From Thereva unica (lineage: Eukaryota > Arthropoda > Insecta > Diptera > Therevidae), in contig OX465281.1 of the NCBI GenBank assembly GCA_949987705.1, positions 198,573,112-198,637,111 of the forward strand: 64,000 bases of DNA, given 5' to 3'. This document shows, piece by piece, positions 47,487 through 63,379 of the stretch (positions are counted from its first letter, which is position 1; each line of letters starts with the position of its first letter). Below the pieces are notes generated by a model. That model was not told the origin of the DNA and did no database searches. It saw only the letters and a program-made list of their open reading frames with translations. The position numbers and the translations under genes are program-made.

Positions 47487-48119
47487 AAGTTTTCACTCTA
47501 TCAGGAATACTGACTTTTTCCGATTAGGTTTTCGAAATGCAGACCTACCCCATTTTTTAACGGCCGCCCCGCCCCGCTCGGGCTATGAAGGATTTTTATT
47601 GGTTCTAATAGGTACGTCGTCTTTCTGTCTATTTGTAGGGCGGTTAAGAGAACCGGCTAATCTTGGTTTGAAACGTTTTTGACGGGCTATATTTTCTTAG
47701 ACATATTTTAGGCTTCCTTTCACTCGGTCAAAGAGTATTTTATTGACAAAGACAGACAAGCCGTTATGGGGGGGTATAGCCCAATACTTAAGGATTGTGT
47801 ATTGATTGTGTAGGAGACAGAAATAATCGAACACTGCTGCCACTGTAAGATATTGCTCTTTCAATAGACGGGAATACTATTGATCGATGGGTCAGAGATT
47901 ATATTGAAATACACAATAAACCTAAGTTAAACAAATGAACAAAAAGAAATCTATCAACGCGTCATCAACTGTATCAATACGGGTGTAAGTAGTGTATATT
48001 TTTTAGGCGCACCACGCGACACTGGCACTGGATAGTGCCGATAGGCTCTCTAAGTAGTAGAGCTATGTCACTCCGGCGCCACCTCCTAGGTGGCTTCGTA
48101 GTGACATAGGATTTGGGGG
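47487..48119. other. No recognisable gene
   Basis: Anonymous sequence. A GC-richer patch around 48005-48110 contains several short inverted words (for example GGCACTGGATAGTGCC and GCCACCTCCTAGGTGGC) but matches no RNA family I know. Confidence 0.4.
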
Positions 48120-48700
48120 GGTCTGAAAGCTCTTCATGTACGTGTACGAGGTGTTTTAGGTTTGTGTCTTGGATAAGGTGGCTTGAAAGCTCTTCATGTA
48201 TGGGTATGAGGTGTGAAGGTGGCTTAGAGTTGGTGTGTGGAGATGGGTGAAAGCTCTTTATGTACGTGTACGAGATGTTTTGGGTTTGGGTCTTGGGTTA
48301 GGTGGTTTGAAAGCTGTTTATGGAGGTTGGGTGTCTTGGATGGGGTGGCTTGGAGTTGGTGGGTGGAGATGGGTGGTCCAGAGCGTGTATGGGATTTGGT
48401 GTGGGACCGGGGTGGGATTTGGGGTGTGACTGAAAGCTGTGTTGTTGAGTGCCACCTGTGGGAAGCTAGTTGAATTTCGGTGTTGATTTGGTCCAGAGCT
48501 GGCATGGGATTTGAGGTGTGACTTAAAGCTCTGGATGTATGTTTCTTGGATAGGGTGGCGCAGAACCGGCATGGGATATGGCCCAGAGCTGGCATGGGAT
48601 TTGGGGATGTGACTTAAGGCTCTGGATGTATGTTTGCGTGGCCCAGAACCGGCATGGGATTTTGGATAAAAAGTTGGTGCGAGATGTGAGCGCCAGCTGT
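48120..48700 (+). repeat. Degenerate G/T-rich minisatellite
   Basis: Irregular tandem copies of words such as GAAAGCTCTTCATGTACGTG, GGTTTGTGTCTTGGATAAGG, GGTGGCTTGGAGTTGGTGGG and GAGCTGGCATGGGATTTG. The open frames across it on both strands follow from its composition and are not genes. It lies just outside the left inverted repeat of the Polinton; sequence near 48715 (CTAAGAATTAAAGAAGCTC) resembles the inner edge of that repeat. Confidence 0.8.
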
Positions 48701-48841
48701 GAGAAGCTAGTTGAACTAAGAATTAAAGAAGCTCTTGGGGAACCTTTGGATAAATTTCTCTGTGAGTGGAATTAAACTAAGCTGTGTGTGGGGGATTGAG
48801 AGCTTTGGTTTCGAGATGTTTTCTGTAGTATTAATTCTGGT

Positions 48842-48945
48842 GCTTTGGAATGAGCTTTGATTCTGGAGCAAAAATATACATATAATTCAGTGAAGAACTG
48901 TACTTTCAAGTAACACTAAGAATTAAATTAAGCTTTAGCTGAGAT
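48842..48945 (+). repeat. Polinton left terminal inverted repeat
   Basis: 104 bp matching the complement of 62726-62816 at about 95 percent, except for a 12-bp insertion (AATTAAATTAAG, 48921-48932) that duplicates adjacent sequence. It contains ATATACATATAATTC, which could act as an inward-facing TATA-like element. It is short for the group, whose repeats usually span hundreds of bases. Confidence 0.85.
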
Positions 48946-50824: not shown

Positions 50825-53800
50825 ATGGATACACGCAGTATAATGAGTGGACTAAAAAAGCAAGCAGCAGATTGCTTAAGGGACAGAGACGCTGCGCAAA
50901 GTGTTATTATTACAAAGGTGTGTGGTTTATTCATTAAAAAAATAAAAGCAGCATGCAGGGCCGAAAAGCAGATTGGGACCAAACAACACTATCAAAATTG
51001 CATTGCGCAACTAAGAGGTTTACAAGTATTGTTGAAAGCTGGCAGCAGCCACCATGGAGCAGGTGTGCAGGAAGGAGGAAGAAGTGAAAAAAGAAGTGCT
51101 CGTGTACGCTGGGAAGAGCTGAATAATGCGTTTGCATCACGAATCAGGACAGGCGTCATCATTAATATAAAGCACATCGAAGTGAAGCAATTTTTAAAGG
51201 ATGGTTATGCTTTGTTTGAGCGGCGCGTTAAGAACATTTTAAAGAAGCATAATTTCGTCAAGACATCAACGACTTTAAGCTGCGAGTATGTTAAGCATGG
51301 TGTCAATGATGGTGATATTATAAGCGACATAAAATACTTTCACACCAAAACTACGCCCATTGGGAGCACCGATGATCTGGAACAGTGGTTTTTGAAAAAC
51401 GTGCAGGATGATCTATTGACCCAAGTTGAGGAGTTCCAAGAGAAAGATAGCGGCTGGGCTTTACATACCATAGTGAACTTAATGGTGCAAATAAACAAAT
51501 ACGAGCCATTAAGAGGATCGTCATTTATAAAATTGCCGCAAAGCATCGCAGCAAAGCATGCATGCGTAAATGTGAGGAATAATGATAATGCATGCTTTGC
51601 GTGGGCAGTGGTCTCTGCTTTGTATCCAGTAGAGTATAGGGATCACGCATATAGAACATCAAAGTACCCGCACTACAACAATGTGCTAAACTTGAGCGGT
51701 ATCACTCTTCCAGTTACACTGAGTCAAATAAAAATATTTGAAGCAAACAATGGATTATCGATTAATGTTTTCATACTGGAAAAGGAAAAGACAAATGAAT
51801 ACACGACTGTTCCAGCTTACTTAACGAAGAAGCAATTGGATAAACACATCAACCTGCTAATGATAAAGTCAAATTATGACTGCAGTGAGGATGGTGATGA
51901 TAGTGACGGTGATAGTGATATTGTTTATCATTTCTGCTGGATTAAAGACTTATCACGTTTGGTGAGCAGGCAGACGTCTAAAAACGAACACAAAAAATAT
52001 ATCTGCGATAGATGTTTATTTTATTTTTATACTGAAGAAATGCTCGCAGCGCATGTGTCTGAGTGTGAAAAGGTGAATGACTGTAAAGTTGCTTTTCACA
52101 AGGAGAAATTTATCACTTTTAAAAATTATAATTATAAGAATCCAGTGCCATTTACAGTATATGCAGATTTGGAGTCGGTATTGATACCTGTTACCGATGG
52201 TGGTAGTAATGGTGATAAGACGAGAAAAATTCAAGAACATGAAGTTCATAGTATTGGATTATATTTTCACTGCTACTACGATGACTCTTTATCATTTTAC
52301 CGATCAAATCGTGGAAAAACGTGTCTTCAGTGGTTTACATTGCAGTTGCAGGAAATAGCAAATATAGCTGAAGAGAAAATAAAAGATATAAAACCGCTAG
52401 TACCCTTATCAGTGCAGGAAAAGTGCATACAATATAACCAACCATGCTGCCATATATGCGAGAAACCCTTTGTGCTTGGCGAAACTAGAGTGAGAGATCA
52501 TTGCCACCTCACAGGTAAATATCGTGGACCTGCACAAAACAGCTGCAACATCAATTATAATGATTGTCGCAACATCCCAGTCATTTTCCACTCAGGATAT
52601 GATGCGCATTTCATAATCAAGGATATAGCATTAACCATACCAGGAAAAGTGGATCTTTTACCGTTGAACAAAGAGCGGTACATTTCATTTACCAAACACA
52701 TTGAAAATAGCTCCATCAAGCTGAGATTCATCGACTCTTATAGATTTATGGATGAATCTTTGGATAAACTAGCCGGACTGCTGCCTAAGGAAAAATTAAA
52801 AATAACAAAAGCTCAATGGCAAGACCTGGATGATGAAAGCTTCAACCTTCTCACGCGCAAAGGAGTTTTTCCATATGACTTCATCGATGGTTGGGATAAA
52901 TTGGAGTGTAATAGTTTACCTAGCGTGGAGCATTTTTATAATAAAATGATTGATGAGCCGATAACTGAAAAAGATTATGAACATGCGCAAAAAGTGTGGG
53001 AAAAATTTAACATTAAAAGCCTGGGAGAGTATTCAGATTTGTATTTAAAAACAGATGTTCTTCTGCTGGCGGATATTTTTACAAATTTTAGAGCTATGGG
53101 ACTGGAGACTTACAAACTTGACCCTGCACACGTCTTCACACTGCCTGGATATACATGGGCAGCGATGCTGTATTACACGGGAGTGCGCTTAGAAAGGATA
53201 ATGGATGTTGACATGCTTTTATTTATTGAAAAATCTTGCCGAGGTGGAATTAGCCAATGCTGCTGCAGATATAGTGAAGCCAACAATAAATATATGAAAA
53301 ACTTTAAACCGGATGAAGAAACTAAATATCTGATGTACTATGACGTGAATAATTTATATGGATGGGCCATGTCGCAATCACTTCCAACCGGAAACTTTAA
53401 ATGGATTGATAATGTTGATGTTATGAGTGTTGATGATAATTCACCGATCGGCTATATGTTGGAGGTAGATCTTGAATACCCGCAGGAGCTGCATAATTTG
53501 CATAAAGATTTTCCATTTTGCCCCACTCATTCAGCACCACCAGGATCAAAACAAGGCAAACTTTTAACCACTTTACACACCAAAGAAAAATATGTTATAC
53601 ATTACCGCAACCTAAAACAATGTTTATCACATGGACTAATACTCAAGAAAACTCACCGCATTCTGCAGTTCGATCAATCACCATGGCTTAAACCATATGT
53701 GGACTTAAATACAGATAAAAGGAAACAAGCCAAAAATGCCTACGAGAAGAACCAATATAAGAAAATAATTAATGCTGTTTTCGGAAAAACTATGGAAAAT

Positions 53801-54577
53801 GTGCGAAAATATTCAAACATAAAACTATGTACAAAGTGGGAGGGGCGGTATGGCGCTAGAAACCTCATTGCAGCACCGAATTTCCATAGTCGCGCAATTT
53901 TCAATGAAAATTTAGTAGCAGTTGAATTACGAAAGCTGGTAGTTAAATTCGATAAACCATTATACATTGGTATGGCGATTCTCGATATTTCTAAAATAGC
54001 ACTGTACGAATTCCATTATGACTTTATGCTAAAAGAGTTGAATGCTGATAAATGCAAAATAATGTACATGGATACGGATTCATTAGTATATGAAATAAAA
54101 AATGTTGACATATACGATATTATGAAGAAAAACATAGATAAATTTGATACTAGTGATTATCCTATGACCAACCAGTTTAATATGCCGCAAGCAAATAAAA
54201 AAGTTCCTGGATTGATGAAAGATGAATTAAGTGGCCGAATAATGACATTGTTTGTAGGCTTAAGGTCTAAAATGTACTCCCTTGAAATAGATGGTGTTGA
54301 TGAAGTGAAGAAAGCAAAAGGGGTAAAGAAGAACGTTGTGGCGAAAACTTTGCAGATTAGCGACTATATTGAATGTTTGCAAAATTCAAAAAGCAAGATA
54401 GCTGAGCAAAAAAGCATTCGTTCATATAGTCATAAAGTGTACACTTTAAACCAAGCAAAGATCGCTTTAAACCCACAGGATGATAAACGCTGCATTATGG
54501 ACAACGGGATCGACACTCTACCATGGGGACATTTTTCAGTGCAGCAGCAGCAGCAAGAAGACATGGATGTAGAATAA
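50825..54577 (+). CDS. polB: Polinton protein-primed DNA polymerase B
   Basis: A 1250-residue frame from the ATG at 50825; the 11 preceding open codons lack an ATG. Approximate residues: an N-terminal region with NNDNACFAWAVVSALYP (near 246), which resembles an OTU-type cysteine-protease centre; a C2H2-like finger CDRCLFYFYTEEMLAAHVSEC (near 392); exonuclease motif I VYADLE (447); an inserted His-Me-finger (endonuclease VII-like) block with CCHICEKPF, VRDHCHLTGKYRG and CNINY (539-575); exonuclease II FHSGYDAHF (586) and III YSDLYLKTDVLLLAD (734); polymerase motifs A YYDVNNLYGWAMSQSLP (838), B KKIINAVFGKTMENV (978) and C MYMDTDSLVYE (1081); and GLRSKMYSLE (1146). It would replicate the element from a protein primer bound at the ends. 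No lesion is seen. Confidence 0.97.
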   Translation: MDTRSIMSGLKKQAADCLRDRDAAQSVIITKVCGLFIKKIKAACRAEKQIGTKQHYQNCIAQLRGLQVLLKAGSSHHGAGVQEGGRSEKRSARVRWEELNNAFASRIRTGVIINIKHIEVKQFLKDGYALFERRVKNILKKHNFVKTSTTLSCEYVKHGVNDGDIISDIKYFHTKTTPIGSTDDLEQWFLKNVQDDLLTQVEEFQEKDSGWALHTIVNLMVQINKYEPLRGSSFIKLPQSIAAKHACVNVRNNDNACFAWAVVSALYPVEYRDHAYRTSKYPHYNNVLNLSGITLPVTLSQIKIFEANNGLSINVFILEKEKTNEYTTVPAYLTKKQLDKHINLLMIKSNYDCSEDGDDSDGDSDIVYHFCWIKDLSRLVSRQTSKNEHKKYICDRCLFYFYTEEMLAAHVSECEKVNDCKVAFHKEKFITFKNYNYKNPVPFTVYADLESVLIPVTDGGSNGDKTRKIQEHEVHSIGLYFHCYYDDSLSFYRSNRGKTCLQWFTLQLQEIANIAEEKIKDIKPLVPLSVQEKCIQYNQPCCHICEKPFVLGETRVRDHCHLTGKYRGPAQNSCNINYNDCRNIPVIFHSGYDAHFIIKDIALTIPGKVDLLPLNKERYISFTKHIENSSIKLRFIDSYRFMDESLDKLAGLLPKEKLKITKAQWQDLDDESFNLLTRKGVFPYDFIDGWDKLECNSLPSVEHFYNKMIDEPITEKDYEHAQKVWEKFNIKSLGEYSDLYLKTDVLLLADIFTNFRAMGLETYKLDPAHVFTLPGYTWAAMLYYTGVRLERIMDVDMLLFIEKSCRGGISQCCCRYSEANNKYMKNFKPDEETKYLMYYDVNNLYGWAMSQSLPTGNFKWIDNVDVMSVDDNSPIGYMLEVDLEYPQELHNLHKDFPFCPTHSAPPGSKQGKLLTTLHTKEKYVIHYRNLKQCLSHGLILKKTHRILQFDQSPWLKPYVDLNTDKRKQAKNAYEKNQYKKIINAVFGKTMENVRKYSNIKLCTKWEGRYGARNLIAAPNFHSRAIFNENLVAVELRKLVVKFDKPLYIGMAILDISKIALYEFHYDFMLKELNADKCKIMYMDTDSLVYEIKNVDIYDIMKKNIDKFDTSDYPMTNQFNMPQANKKVPGLMKDELSGRIMTLFVGLRSKMYSLEIDGVDEVKKAKGVKKNVVAKTLQISDYIECLQNSKSKIAEQKSIRSYSHKVYTLNQAKIALNPQDDKRCIMDNGIDTLPWGHFSVQQQQQEDMDVE

Positions 54578-54632: not shown

Positions 54633-55106
54633 TTATAAAAAATTTGTTTTATTTAAAAATTCCCTTATTACAAAAACATTTTTCAGAGCACATCGGCCTT
54701 CGTGTATTATGCAGGATAAGAAGCCATTTGTTGTTGTTGTTGTTAATAGTTTGGGGCATCCCTCCTCTTCTACATCATATATGGTTAGCTCCTCTCCAAA
54801 TAATTCCTGAATCCATTGTTTCTTTCCAGCTCCTTTAACATAGATTATTTTATCATGCAACAGATCTCCAACTGAATATAGTGTGCGGTAGGGAATGTAT
54901 CCATCACCCCATCTGAATCCATGGTGATTGTGTCTCAGCCACTCAACTTGTTTCTTTTCAGACCGAGTTAGATGTTTATGTGGGAATGGTGGTTGGAATA
55001 TGTAGTGCTGCATTTGATTTTCACAATTTAAAAGGGCCAATTCTTTGAAAATAAATTGATTGTTTTGTAATTTGAATCCTTGAAGATCGATGATAATGGC
55101 ATCCAT
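54633..55106 (-). CDS. Polinton 157-aa protein, possible nuclease-like fold
   Basis: A frame from the ATG at 55106, which lies one base after the stop codon of the upstream capsid gene (TGAAATG). It has no TATA box of its own, so translation by reinitiation on the capsid mRNA is likely. Visible blocks: MDAIIIDLQGFKLQNNQFIF, KELALLN, VEWLRHNHHGFRWGDGYIPY, IIYVKGAGKKQWIQELFG, EEEGCPKL and RCALKNVFV. The opening beta-strand with an aspartate, then a KEL strand and a KG-K-W helix, recall RNase H-fold (DEDD-type) exonucleases, but I cannot confirm the active site. It probably belongs to a family seen in other arthropod Polintons. Confidence 0.7.
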   Translation of the reverse strand: MDAIIIDLQGFKLQNNQFIFKELALLNCENQMQHYIFQPPFPHKHLTRSEKKQVEWLRHNHHGFRWGDGYIPYRTLYSVGDLLHDKIIYVKGAGKKQWIQELFGEELTIYDVEEEGCPKLLTTTTTNGFLSCIIHEGRCALKNVFVIREFLNKTNFL

Positions 55107-57192: not shown

Positions 57193-57541
57193 CATTATGT
57201 AAGAATTCTAAGCATAAGTGTCCGCAAATCACTGAGTTGAAATTTTGATGAGCTGTATAGTTGTATGTGACTGCATCTCCCAAATAATTTACAACTTCCC
57301 GCGGTGGCTGCAGATTTCCAAAACTATCAAAGTAATTTATGATATCTCCATTCTTCTTATACGCTACCCAATGCGTTCCAGGTCCAGATAAAACATCTAG
57401 ATTTATAATTCCGCTCTCATTTCTCCATGGTTTTTTAGGTAATTGATCGCGCATAAATACTCCTCTAAAGTGGGCTATATTCTGTGCATATTTACGCAGA
57501 TCATTTTCATTGAGTGCTCTTTTGGGCAGCGACTTTATTAG
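57188..57541 (-). CDS. Adenovirus-type maturation protease, reached by -1 frameshift
   Basis: An open frame of 117 codons begins at the last base of a slippery heptamer and ends at 57188. The conserved blocks are LPKRALNENDL, HFRGVFMRDQLPKKPWRN, ESGIINLD, the catalytic-histidine region GPGTHWVAYKK, the acidic residue in NYFDSFG, and the nucleophile region NSVICGHLCLEFL, in the order of the adenovirus (C5) cysteine protease. The first ATG in frame (57454) would remove the conserved RALNENDL-to-FRGVF segment, and no ATG lies between the upstream stop (57581-57583) and that point. The frame is -1 relative to the gene just upstream, which suggests production as a frameshift extension. The protease would cleave capsid precursors. 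Confidence 0.88.
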   Translation of the reverse strand, partial: LIKSLPKRALNENDLRKYAQNIAHFRGVFMRDQLPKKPWRNESGIINLDVLSGPGTHWVAYKKNGDIINYFDSFGNLQPPREVVNYLGDAVTYNYTAHQNFNSVICGHLCLEFLHNV

Positions 57542-58371
57542 TTTTTTGGTCGGGGGTTGAGAAAAAGTCCCAGTCCTTTCCTATATGGCTTTAGAAATAA
57601 TCCTTGCCCATGTTTTCCTAGCGCTATAGCTTCCATTGTCTCATTATGACGTTTCGCTTCCTGAAGCTCCCGACGTGCGCCGCTTGCTGCGTTTACAGCT
57701 TTAGCTATGCCTGCTGCACCTCCAGATAGCGCTCCAACGGCTGAAAGACCTGCAAAAAGTGGAATGAGGAACGGTAAAACTCCACCTACTTTAGGCACTG
57801 GTATCACTCTAGGTGTAGTGTATGATTTTTTCTTCCCCTTAATAACATTCTTTGCAGCACTTAGAGCAATTTTAGTAGCTTCCAACAGATCTTTCGGCTT
57901 TTTCAGCTTTAACACTTTTCTAGCATTACGTACAGCTTCGTGGAATGATGGACGTAACGTATTCTTCTTCTTCTTCGAGCAGGTAATTTTTGCTTTGACA
58001 CCCATTCCAACTTTTATTTTAGCTTTCATGGCGTTTGTTACTAATAGCGCGTTAGCACGTTCTGCAAAGCTAGCGTCTTTAGATGTTACTCGTTGCCAGG
58101 CTTTTTCTTCTAAAATACGGTCAGCTATATGTCGGTCGCTTAAGTCCTTATGATCTCGATATGCAATATCATGCTGTTTGCAGGCTGCGTCTAGTGGGTT
58201 GATACCAGGATCACCGCGAGCTAGTCTTTTAGCTAACTTTGTTCCTGGACCACAGTATTGATATCCCGGTAGATGAAGCTCAAGCGGTAACTTATTTATA
58301 ACAGTGTTTAACAGTCCTCCCCCCTTGGCAGCTTTTCGATGAATGATGCGTTTCTCGCTATGGTCAATCAT
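57538..58371 (-). CDS. Phospholipase A2-like virion protein (Polinton PX-type)
   Basis: 277 residues from the ATG at 58371. Residues about 30-72 carry a parvovirus-type phospholipase A2 centre: the calcium-loop YCGPGT (39-44) and the catalytic HD pair in CKQHDIAY (67-68). A lysine-rich middle (KAKIKVGMGVKAKITCSKKK) follows, then a long hydrophobic stretch (GGVLPFLIPLFAGLSAVG, near 210-235) and a short basic tail. Membrane breach during entry is the known role of this domain in parvoviruses; here it is inferred. The last sense codons form A AAA AAC before the TAA stop, a classic -1 frameshift site leading into the protease frame. A divergent TATA box lies 47 bp upstream. Confidence 0.88.
   Translation of the reverse strand: MIDHSEKRIIHRKAAKGGGLLNTVINKLPLELHLPGYQYCGPGTKLAKRLARGDPGINPLDAACKQHDIAYRDHKDLSDRHIADRILEEKAWQRVTSKDASFAERANALLVTNAMKAKIKVGMGVKAKITCSKKKKNTLRPSFHEAVRNARKVLKLKKPKDLLEATKIALSAAKNVIKGKKKSYTTPRVIPVPKVGGVLPFLIPLFAGLSAVGALSGGAAGIAKAVNAASGARRELQEAKRHNETMEAIALGKHGQGLFLKPYRKGLGLFLNPRPKN
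57541..57547 (-). promoter_or_regulatory. Candidate -1 ribosomal frameshift site
   Basis: The minus strand reads AAAAAAC, phased as A AAA AAC in the phospholipase-like frame and followed directly by TAA. A -1 slip enters the protease frame with no stop. This heptamer is among the most efficient eukaryotic slip sites. I see no obvious strong downstream stem or pseudoknot. Confidence 0.7.
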
Positions 58372-58446: not shown

Positions 58447-59131
58447 ATGAAGTTTATCAAGCAACAAGCGTGTCTACCAGTTAGAAATACTGATGTGGAA
58501 ATTACAAGTACATCAAAGAAGCATGGGGTGCTGCTACCAAACAGTATAAGAGGTATTATTGTTGGACCGTCGAATTGTGGCAAGACAAATGTTATGCTAA
58601 GTCTACTGGAGCATCCTAACGGTCTGAGATTCGAGAATATATACATTTACTCAAAGTCGCTAAGTCAGCCGAAATACGAGTATTTAGGAGAAGTTGTAGC
58701 TCACATATCAGGTTTGGGCTATTATACGTTTTCTAACAACCACGATGTTATACCACCGGAGGAAGCAAAGCCAAACTCAATTTTCATCTTTGATGATGTA
58801 GCCTGCGATAAACAAAAATAATATTAGAGCCTACTTTTGTATGGGGAGGCATAACGACATTGACAGCTTTTACCTCTGTCAAACTTATACTCATATACCA
58901 AAGCATCTAATCCGAGATAATGCAAACTTTCTGATCATATTCAAACAAGATGATTTGAACCTGAAGCATGTATACAATGATCATGTGAATAGTGATATGG
59001 AATTCGCAAAGTTCAGAAAAGCGTGTGCCAACTGTTGGAAAGACAAATATGGATTCTTAGTAATTGATAAGGACAGCCCCATGGGCAAAGGTCGATATCG
59101 AAAAGGCTTTGATGCATTCATGAGCCTATGA
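58447..59131 (+). pseudogene. Packaging ATPase (A32/FtsK-type), one-base frameshift
   Basis: From the ATG at 58447 the frame shows Walker A VGPSNCGKTNVML (near residue 39) and Walker B SIFIFDDVACD (near 113), then a TAA at 58819-58821. The remainder of the protein (YFCMGRHNDIDSFYLCQTYT, HLIRDNANFLIIFKQDD, GFLVIDKDSP, RYRKGFDAF) continues in the +1 frame to 59131. The switch falls at an A-run (58814-58818), consistent with one extra A. The enzyme would pump element DNA into capsids. A homopolymer sequencing error, a true lesion or a rare +1 recoding event are all possible; the first two are likelier. Confidence 0.92.
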
Positions 59132-59159: not shown

Positions 59160-60098
59160 CTTTCAGCTCTGCCTGGCTGGTCTGTCTGGCTGGTCTGTCT
59201 GGCTGGTTGGCTGGTCTGTCTGGCTGGTTGGCTGGTCTGTCTGGCTGGTCTGTCTGGCTGGTTGGCTGGTCTGTCTGGCTGGTTGGCTGGTCTGTCTGGC
59301 TGGTCTGTCTGGCTGGTTGGCTGGTCTGTCTGGCTGGTTGGCTGGTCTGTCTGGTTGGTCTGTCTGGCTGGTCTGTCTAGCTGGTTGGCTGGTCTGTCTG
59401 GCTGGTTGGCTGGTCTGTCTGGCTGGTTGGCTGGTCTGTCTGGCTGGTTGGCTGGTCTGTCTGGCTGGTCTGTCTGGCTGGTTGGCTGGTCTGTCTGGCT
59501 GGTCTGTCTGGCTGGTTGGCTGGTCTGTCTGGCTGGTTGGCTGGTCTGTCTGGCTGGTCTGTCTGGCTGGTCTGTCTGGCTGGTCTGTCTGGCTGGTTGG
59601 CTGGTCTGTCTGGCTGGTTGGCTGGTCTGTCTGGTTGCTCTGTCTGGCTGGTCTGTCTAGCTGGTTGGCTGGTCTGTCTGGCTGGTTGGCTGGTCTGTCT
59701 GGCTGGTTGGCTGGTCTGTCTGGCTGGTCTGTCTGGCTGGTTGGCTGGTCTGTCTGGCTGGTTGGCTGGTCTGTCTGGCTGGTCTGTCTGGCTGGTTGGC
59801 TGGTCTGTCTGGCTGGTTGGCTGGTCTGTCTGGTTGGTCTGTCTGGCTGGTCTGTCTAGCTGGTTGGCTGGTCTGTCTGGCTGGTTGGCTGGTCTGTCTG
59901 GCTGGTCTGTCTGGCTGGTTGGCTGGTCTGTCTGGCTGGTTGGCTGGTCTGTCTGGCTGGTCTGTCTGGCTGGTTGGCTGGTCTGTCTGGCTGGTCTGTA
60001 TGGCTGGCTGGTCTGTCTGGCTGGTCTGTCTGGCTGGTCTGTCTAGCTGGTCTGTCTGTCTGGCTGGTCTGTCTGGCTGGTCTGTCTGGCTGATCTGT

Positions 60099-60158
<60 letters not shown>

Positions 60159-60165
60159 TTTGTCT
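59160..60165 (+). repeat. ~1-kb GGCTGG/TCTGT minisatellite
   Basis: The plus strand is almost free of A. It is built from two words, CTGGCTGGTCTGT (13 bp) and CTGGCTGGTTGGCTGGTCTGT split as 13+8 bp, in irregular order. A marker segment (CTGGTTGGTCTGTCTGG...CTAGCTGG, once with TTGCTC) recurs at about 59349, 59631 and 59829, showing higher-order units of ~200-280 bp. The end decays into pure (GGCT)n at about 60094-60160. All plus frames are open because of composition, giving WLVGWSV-like polymers that are not credible proteins. It separates the ATPase from the next gene. Confidence 0.97.
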
Positions 60166-60187
60166 GGTTGATTGACCTGTCAGGATC

Positions 60188-61164: not shown

Positions 61165-61521
61165 ATGAGCGTTGACAAGTTTGGTCGATCTTTTAAACGG
61201 CAAAAATTTAGAGCAGTGGGTGATCGCGGTCCACCTGGAATTCCTGGAAAAGACGGTCCTGCTGGACCAAAAGGAAACGGTTTCAATTTAACATCAGATG
61301 GTGACTATGATCTTACCTTGAAAAGAATCAAAAACCTAGGTGATCCAAAAGAAAATGCTGACGCTGCAACCAAAAACTATGTCGACGAAGAAATACGGGA
61401 AAGCATTGACAAAGCAGTAGAGAATCTAACGATGTTCATTTATCGCGAAATTGCGAAGATCGAAAATTATATATTCTCACACATAATTAATAAGAAGGCT
61501 GAAAATGGCATCTCTGAGTAA
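61165..61521 (+). CDS. Collagen-like fibre protein
   Basis: 118 residues. A basic start (SFKRQKFRAVGDRG) leads into a short collagen-type run of Gly-X-Y triplets (GPPGIPGKDGPAGPKG), then RIKNLGDPKENADAATKNYVD, a pattern common in phage and virus tail-fibre or spike proteins, and a helical, probably trimeric coiled C-terminus. It is likely a trimeric spike or fibre used for host attachment; this is inferred from architecture. The last 17 bases overlap the start of the integrase gene. The frame is intact. Confidence 0.7.
   Translation: MSVDKFGRSFKRQKFRAVGDRGPPGIPGKDGPAGPKGNGFNLTSDGDYDLTLKRIKNLGDPKENADAATKNYVDEEIRESIDKAVENLTMFIYREIAKIENYIFSHIINKKAENGISE
61468..61473 (+). promoter_or_regulatory. 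Possible TATA box for the integrase gene
   Basis: TATATA within the end of the fibre gene, 32 bp before the integrase ATG. Confidence 0.35.
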
Positions 61522-62452: not shown

Positions 62453-62683
62453 TTATAACAAATTTGTTTTATTTTCAAATCTTATGCTATATATTTTTTC
62501 ATGATGATGTTGGTTTAATATGGGCTCTAGGATTTTGCCTGTATTGATGACTCTCTGTTGAAATCTGCATCTATCAAGGGCACTTATATGCCATTGCCCC
62601 ATACGGCTAGCTCTATAATCGAAATCCCATACATACATGATGTGTACTTCAGGCGCTAGTGTAAATCGAACCCTTTTCAGCAT
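62453..62683 (-). CDS. GADD34/PPP1R15-like PP1-targeting protein, 76 aa
   Basis: A complete frame from an ATG at 62683, inside the right inverted repeat region and convergent with the integrase. Residues 4-7 are RVRF, a canonical RVxF docking motif for protein phosphatase 1. VH at 13-14 and VW at 18-19 follow at the spacing found in cellular PPP1R15. Then comes AxRxGxW (25-31), A at 35 and DRxRFxxRV (37-45). This ordered, ungapped set is the signature of the GADD34 C-terminal core, which recruits PP1 to dephosphorylate eIF2-alpha. Herpes simplex and African swine fever viruses are known to use related modules against PKR-type shut-off. Whether it works so here is inference. The inverted repeat supplies a TATA-like ATATAA at 62774-62779. 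Confidence 0.85.
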   Translation of the reverse strand: MLKRVRFTLAPEVHIMYVWDFDYRASRMGQWHISALDRCRFQQRVINTGKILEPILNQHHHEKIYSIRFENKTNLL

Positions 62684-62725
62684 TCTCTACAGCTGCTTTT
62701 GGTGATCCGCCAGACCCAATGCTGG

Positions 62726-62816
62726 ATCTCAGCTAAAGCTTAGTGTTACTTGAAAGTCCAGTTCTTCACTGAATTATATGTATATTTTGCTCTAGAATCC
62801 AAGCTCATTCCATAGC
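62726..62816 (-). repeat. Polinton right terminal inverted repeat
   Basis: 91 bp matching the complement of 48842-48945 (GCTCATTCC, CTTCACTGAATTATATGTAT, CTTGAAAGTCCAGTTC-type blocks), without the 12-bp insertion of the left copy. Confidence 0.85.
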
Positions 62817-63379
62817 CTAAGTTGCTACATTGATTATATACTAAGTAGATATGGACAAACGCGAGTCAAATTAACTTCAGGTTACGGCACCACGAGCTGG
62901 GGGCGCTAATATCGCAGGGTTTTATGCTCCGCTATATATGGTTAGTTTCCGAAATAAACTTTTCTTATTTGCGTGAAAGCCCTTTGCGCATTTGAAAACA
63001 AAATCAGAAGCTGCGGCTTTGAGTTTAGTGGCGGTGGATCTAAAAATAGATTTCTATGCGCTTATTCCTATTGTTTTGTTCGGGAAGGGCAAAGAGGGTG
63101 ATAAAATGATGATGATTTCGTAGGCGATGGGTGAAATTTGACAATGAGGGAATAAATGAATGGGCGAGATAACTTTAATGGGAAATTTGGCTACAAGCAT
63201 GTTTTTATTATCTTTAGAAAAATGAAGGGATTATTTCCTTTTTCTTAGCGAAAAGGTGACAAATTTTTAGATTTGTTCTCAGGTATTTTATAAGTTCGTA
63301 GAAATTTGAAATTTTTACGGATAATTTAATTACTGTTGAGATAAATAAAATAATTTTTGTTTTTGATTTTATTTATCGT
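62817..63379. other. No recognisable gene
   Basis: Anonymous AT-rich flank of the Polinton. No target duplication could be matched to the left flank. Confidence 0.4.

Follow-up and report, generated by a model that had tools for sequence, protein, structure and literature searches.

A PPP1R15-like gene under purifying selection beside the integrase of an insect Polinton

A Polinton in the genome of Thereva unica carries, next to its integrase, a 76-codon gene whose product is, judged by its sequence, homologous to PPP1R15/GADD34. The gene is under purifying selection about as strong as that on the integrase, across several lineages, and it is conserved across Polinton lineages. The reading that we favour, with a probability of roughly 0.78, is that a PPP1R15 core (essentially the last exon) was captured from an insect host, is now a resident accessory gene of the Polinton and acts on PP1 and eIF2-alpha to sustain translation. 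With such a gene the element would probably sustain protein synthesis against the attempts of the cell to stop it. PP1 binding, dephosphorylation of eIF2-alpha, a benefit to the element and a role as antagonist of host defence are what we infer by analogy with the known members of the family. The stretch of DNA analysed, called the window here, is 64,000 nucleotides long, and its features are collected in Table 1.

Table 1. The PPP1R15-like gene and the surrounding Polinton in the window.
Feature	Position	Strand	Remarks
Left terminal inverted repeat	48053..48747	+	begins AGTAGT; placed by comparison with sister copies
1250-aa ORF in PolB position	50825..54577	+	Endonuclease_7-like piece (PF02945, recombination endonuclease VII-like) at residues 534-581 is all that Pfam shows
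Double jelly-roll major capsid protein, 399 aa	55108..56307	-	PF21738, E 1.5e-141; 1969 relatives
Phospholipase A2-like domain protein	57538..58371	-	PF08398, E 9.8e-14
Packaging-ATPase region	58447..59131	+	split in two frames (58447-58821, 58841-59131); weak Pfam matches
Polinton integrase, 308 aa	61505..62431	+	rve domain PF00665, E 1.7e-13; chromodomain below cut-off; convergent neighbour of the PPP1R15-like gene
PPP1R15-like core gene	62453..62683	-	76 aa, ATG at 62683; RVxF aa 4-7, VH 13-14, W31, eIF2-alpha motif aa 27-45
AATAAA within the last codons of the gene	62468..62473	-	resembles a polyadenylation signal
eIF2-alpha-binding motif of GADD34 and viral relatives	62549..62605	-	exact match; motif as given in PMC5346070
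Last element sequence upstream of the gene	62684..62828	-	homology to sister copies ends at about 62828

The PPP1R15 core and its proposed action

The gene is intact, as the preliminary description had it: its reading frame is uninterrupted from ATG to TAA, and 21 bp lie between this stop and that of the convergent integrase gene. The residues named there, RVRF (4-7), VH (13-14), VW (18-19), A25-x-R27-x-G29-x-W31 and D37-R-x-R-F-x-x-R-V45, are all in place, and their order and spacing, said to equal the PPP1R15 core without a gap, are those of human PPP1R15A in an ungapped alignment over residues 3-58. One point needs correction: the core had been placed in the first 45 residues, where the motifs do lie, but it is larger, residues 3-66 aligning with nearly the whole core.

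For the 76-aa product, Pfam-A gave one convincing family, PF10488 (PP1c_bdg; E 2e-4), with 21.6 bits against a gathering score of 26.1. Three sister copies scored 22.3-23.9 bits with the same family, a more diverged copy (class 3, see below) 26.3 and the presumed host exon 28.4. We also ran phmmer against all PDB chains, and it turned out that the top five matches (best E 7.1e-5) were two chains of human PPP1R15A, two of PPP1R15B and, in second place, DP71L of African swine fever virus. With a profile built from the two human cores alone, the ORF scored 37.3 bits. Among 2981 stop-to-stop ORF segments, taken from the window and from 12 further loci, the runner-up reached 6.9, and the highest score among 20,000 shuffles was 10.9. 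When nine element copies were aligned by hhalign with 23 cores from the protein database, the probability was 98.3% and the E-value 1.6e-14, over 64 ungapped columns with 38% identity. The similarity between profiles, on which the proposal had been staked beforehand, is present in both comparisons, in that with Pfam below the gathering score. Besides, the motif published for eIF2-alpha binding by GADD34 and its viral relatives, Rx[Gnl]x1-2Wxxx[Arlv]x[Dn][Rg]xRFxx[Rlvk][Ivc] (as described in PMC5346070), fits the gene at every position; it occurs a single time in the window and in none of 300 dinucleotide-shuffled windows.

To compare single residues, K555 of human PPP1R15A was set on R4 of the window product, and the contact residues were those named for the human protein in the account of the solved holophosphatase (PMC8500838) and in PMC10743859. 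The window copy retains V556, F558, V564, H565, W582, D588, R591, F592 and R595, and it is changed at two eIF2-alpha contacts, Arg587 being replaced by L36 and Arg594 by Q43. Of the 11 contact positions, taken after PMC8500838, 9 are kept, compared with 11 of the 45 remaining ones (Fisher P 8e-4). R612 lies beyond the aligned stretch and falls on residue 61 by counting; this is H in the window. The Glu that follows Trp582, invariant in the 23 database cores, is His in the element gene.

Among the 70 genomic copies that we read (see below), V5, F7, H14, W31, R40 and F41 occur in all, D37 and R44 in 69, R61 in 67, and V13 in 60, with L in the other 10. The RVxF and W/DRxRF residues have therefore not been lost from the orthologous Polinton genes. 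Sorted by the partner that they touch in human PPP1R15A, the PP1 contacts (V5, F7, V13 or L, H14, W31) and the G-actin contacts (F41, R44 and, in most copies read, R61) are retained, and the eIF2-alpha contacts only in part (D37, R40). AlphaFold2 predicted, with low to middling confidence (mean pLDDT 68, pTM 0.31), a mostly unstructured start followed by helices at residues 30-56 and 58-75, with a block of pLDDT 71-85 over residues 31-70. The predicted pair is similar to the two helices that PMC8500838 describes for human residues 582-619; a structure search with the model found nothing to compare.

Known PPP1R15 cores are described as binding PP1 through RVxF and VH, wrapping helices around G-actin and presenting phospho-eIF2-alpha to PP1 (PMC8500838, PMC10743859). 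Phospho-eIF2-alpha is reported to be undetectable in cells expressing DP71L (PMC5346070), and short viral versions of PPP1R15 are reported to bind PP1 (PMC4394352). Because the contact residues have been kept by selection, the same action would be the simplest reading for the element protein. The Polinton protein would clamp host PP1 via RVRF, VH and W31, its two predicted C-terminal helices would dock G-actin and the barrel of eIF2-alpha, and the complex would strip the phosphate from Ser51 of eIF2-alpha, so that translation could continue during replication of the element or assembly of its capsids in a cell under stress.

With Arg587, Arg594 and the Glu next to Trp changed, the substrate could have shifted. 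The most serious competitor is accordingly a PP1 adaptor that descends from PPP1R15 and has been retargeted to another substrate (e.g. a protein of the element), or that does no more than sequester PP1 or actin of the host. With such an adaptor we would expect what is seen in nearly all 70 copies read, namely PP1- and actin-facing residues that are kept, and two of the four Arg/Asp contacts to eIF2-alpha are indeed changed in the window copy. We nevertheless regard it as unlikely, since the published eIF2-alpha motif is matched in full, the functional DP71L likewise has no Arg at the Arg587 position in the alignment, and the diverged class 3 copy, which belongs to a second Polinton lineage, does have Arg at the Arg594 position.

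Genomic copies, selection and the surrounding element

We searched the host genome (910 Mb in 930 contigs) with the 76-aa protein and obtained 582 candidate places, of which 150 were scored; all copy numbers are lower bounds. Most of the scored places (146 of 150) contain no stop, and four do. We read 70 of them, the 30 best and 40 picked to cover the lineages; none came from the four stop-bearing rows, and the openness of all 70 over codons 1-71 is therefore no independent count. Class 1, at least 80% identical to the window protein, makes up 62 of the 70 copies read.

Selection was measured by NG86 between real copies of different lineages, with no consensus involved. The dN/dS of the gene is 0.13-0.22 in six class 1 lineage pairs, which means purifying selection, and that of the integrase in the same copies is 0.13-0.19 in five pairs and 0.00 in one; this comparison omits pairs with copy L085, whose integrase frame holds a stop, and the eight class 2 copies, which have no integrase. 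A wider set of ten class 1 pairs gave the same range except for the closest pair, with 0.72 on four nucleotide differences. Class 1 compared with class 2 has a ratio of 0.06-0.12 for the 71 codons together and of 0.04-0.06 for residues 1-45, at a silent divergence of 0.9-1.9. When residues 46-71 are taken separately, two of five such pairs have 0.39 and two others a meaningless silent-site estimate, so that the tail is under weaker constraint than the core. Neutral evolution was simulated in 20,000 runs, and no run produced as small a number of amino-acid changes as is seen in three of the class 2 pairs; two closer pairs gave P of 0.0014 and 0.036.

These results bear on the idea that the gene is a neutral passenger, i.e. 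a piece of host PPP1R15 that was trapped in one element and copied along. The product does correspond to the last exon of the host, which is how a random capture would look at birth, many copies are only a few changes apart, as after a recent amplification, and 4 of the 150 scored places hold stops. Yet dN/dS is far below 1 and similar to that of the integrase, the neutral simulation disagrees, and silent sites are saturated relative to the host exon (NG86 dS >2) although about half of the residues are kept. A neutral passenger or decaying fossil is thereby refuted for the lineages as a whole, and we hold this explanation to be very improbable. Single copies, including that of the window, may be drifting. 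The window copy has two residues that are rare among the 70 copies read, D22 (1 of 70) and H61 (3 of 70).

That the gene belongs to the Polinton and adjoins the integrase in the terminal slot, as first proposed, holds for the class 1 copies read. In all 62 class 1 copies read the same integrase lies convergently within 400 bp, and in the 60 of them with a placeable integrase end the gap is 17-29 bp. Copy L085 (C1:63016820-63032008) is bounded by inverted repeats of 697 columns with 97.4% identity, has the ends AGTAGT...ACTACT and a 6-bp target duplication (AAACCC), and contains the PPP1R15-like gene at 63018049; complete ends are those of this one copy. A family of host genes, domesticated or multiplied, that merely adjoins Polintons might account for 150 scored places in one genome, but it is hardly credible when the integrase stands alongside in 62 of the 70 copies read, when inverted repeats of 697 bp with Polinton ends, flanked by a target duplication, frame one of the copies, and when the presumed cellular gene is located elsewhere, with a splice-acceptor-like sequence before its core. 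Integrase adjacency and the terminal repeats and target duplication of L085 likewise reject a stray host gene beside the element.

Two observations concern the ends of the elements. Five copies, the window's included (L027, L030-L032 and L052), have only about 26 bp upstream of the gene in common with most other class 1 copies, and this divergence represents alternative element ends. Copies L068 and L072 have near-identical integrases (dS 0.011) and adjoining PPP1R15-like genes that differ (dS 0.165), which hints at recombination or gene conversion near the end of the element.

The hallmarks of a Polinton, an integrase with rve domain and a double jelly-roll capsid protein, are both present in the window, and all named relatives of the capsid protein among the 120 listed are from insects. 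The right terminal repeat has been lost from the window copy, which is end-truncated. We rejected the pair 48842-48925 / 62734-62816 as terminal repeats, because sister copies put the left repeat further out and no right one in the window; this pair is a sub-terminal repeat. Pfam gave no match to PolB or a protease and only weak ones to the ATPase; ORFs of fitting size and order are there, and the protease and PolB are named by size and order alone, the 1250-aa ORF being what we take to be PolB. A stretch of 857 aa, 94% identical to this ORF, lies about 13 kb from copy L060. Since its ATPase region is split into two frames, the window copy is probably not autonomous. Between a 292-aa gene and the integrase there is a 118-aa ORF (61165-61521, plus strand) with a short collagen-like Gly-X-Y stretch and weak, below-cut-off matches to a T7 tail-fibre domain and collagen, possibly a fibre-like virion protein. 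A GGCT-type simple repeat (60000-60170) lies inside the element before the 292-aa gene.

Origin of the gene and its other carriers

To look for the cellular gene, we searched the genome with P0148, an invertebrate-looking core from the protein database. The single best place was C1:223369982-223370191 (E 6.7e-14), which is absent from the places returned for the window protein; another place from this search, with a stop, is C1:205734599. At the best place (L105, C1:223369700-223370600) a frame starting with VRF directly follows a splice-acceptor-like TTTTTAG and runs for 94 residues to a stop, and the two stops reported for the match precede VRF, in the presumed intron. We presume this frame to be the final exon of the cellular PPP1R15 gene of the host; the conserved PPP1R15 core is described as encoded by a separate exon (PMC4394352).

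Five element copies have 31-36 of 65 residues in common with this exon; the corresponding figures are 23-27 of 62 for P0148 and 20-22 of 54 for human PPP1R15A, so that among the cellular sequences found the presumed host exon stands nearest. A tree built from 18 cores puts class 1 and class 2 into one group (96/96), which joins the host exon and class 3 (95/93), with a warning from the program about long branches. The donor of the gene was thus most likely an insect host, and what was taken was the last exon or the coding portion of it. For the residues that precede V5 of the element product, the host exon has no counterpart.

Class 2 comprises 11 of the 150 scored rows, with 72-74% identity, and eight copies (L077-L084) were read. 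None of these eight has a Polinton integrase beside the gene. The convergent neighbour is an IS1595-type transposase (PF12762, E 1.2e-18), identified in L097 on DNA common to the others. In three of five longer class 2 loci there is, nearby, a piece that resembles a Polinton protein (39% over 67 residues), the 157-aa protein at 54633-55106 of the window, and no other Polinton protein was matched in about 15 kb beyond the gene in one class 2 region. Further along from the transposase, class 2 loci (L077-L084, L097-L102) contain ORFs rich in tandem repeats, and the class 2 copies seem to start at GGTAATTC, about 390 bp before the gene.

Class 3 comprises seven rows of the search with P0148 that have a 67-aa frame, matching from query residue 10 to 71, and two of them (L106, L107) were read. 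The product is shorter and 50% identical to that of the window. The gene occupies the same slot in the same convergent order, beside a Polinton integrase 68-70% identical to the window's, i.e. in a second Polinton lineage. Class 3 may go back to a second capture.

A chance or convergent likeness of a short ORF to PPP1R15 can be dismissed as next to impossible: the protein is indeed short and its own Pfam score under the cut-off, but the shuffle controls with the human-only profile and the eIF2-alpha motif, the profile-profile comparison, and the diverged class 3 copy that passes the Pfam cut-off all reject it.

Meaning and comparison with known systems

The gene is known from one host genome. 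In the protein database, no entry has three five-residue words in common with the window protein, though relatives of the capsid protein at 73-85% identity are present; since capsid relatives are there and gene relatives are not, it may be that only few lineages have the gene or that it was not predicted in that database. Scans of viral contigs confirmed no relative (two motif scans gave 26 loci, in which segments scored at most 10.3 bits with the human-only profile), and neither PHROGs nor scans of genome contigs gave a lead. Our literature search found no earlier description of a PPP1R15-like Polinton gene, and a mention in subscription journals or in work on adintoviruses is possible.

For animal Polintons, the question of virus or transposon is presented as open, capsid genes arguing for virions and particles not having been observed (PMC8097293). 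A gene of a kind best known for undoing the translation arrest of the host, and constrained about like the integrase, suggests that some part of the Polinton cycle meets that defence, and it offers a simple assay for it. A broader claim, for which we see even odds, is that animal Polintons carry a dedicated antagonist of the integrated stress response of the host, that selection has kept it in several lineages, and that within one insect genome it has passed among three or more kinds of mobile element (two lineages of Polinton and the element with the IS1595-type transposase), which would point to a true viral infection cycle. If this holds, the host cell would sense Polintons and arrest translation in some phase of their life.

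Compared with cellular PPP1R15 (GADD34/PPP1R15A, CReP/PPP1R15B and insect PPP1R15), the element protein has in common about 64 ungapped core residues with RVxF, VH, Trp, the eIF2-alpha motif and a predicted second helix. It differs in having no N-terminal region, only the core and four residues before V5, and in the changes of the Glu after Trp582, Arg587 and Arg594.

The same pared-down core is seen in the viral relatives herpesvirus ICP34.5, DP71L and the insect-virus protein coGV-gp036, of which DP71L is likened to the element protein by sequence and the other two by description. The short form of DP71L is given as 70-72 residues (PMC5346070, PMC4394352). These relatives are carried by other DNA viruses, whereas the carrier here is an integrating Polinton with an rve integrase and 150 scored copies in one genome; capture of a PPP1R15 core by a transposon-like element would add to the captures known from large DNA viruses.

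As in other Polinton/Maverick elements, extra ORFs flank the core modules, and the ends of L085 are like the (AGT)2//(ACT)2 ends described for vertebrate Mavericks (PMC8097293). A PPP1R15-like gene is not among the accessory genes described in that account. Finally, baculovirus PK2 is also a product of an insect DNA virus that counters translation arrest by eIF2-alpha kinases (as described in PMC3856412), which suggests that this arrest matters to insect DNA viruses; PK2 acts, by description, on the kinase side, whereas the Polinton protein would act on the phosphatase side.
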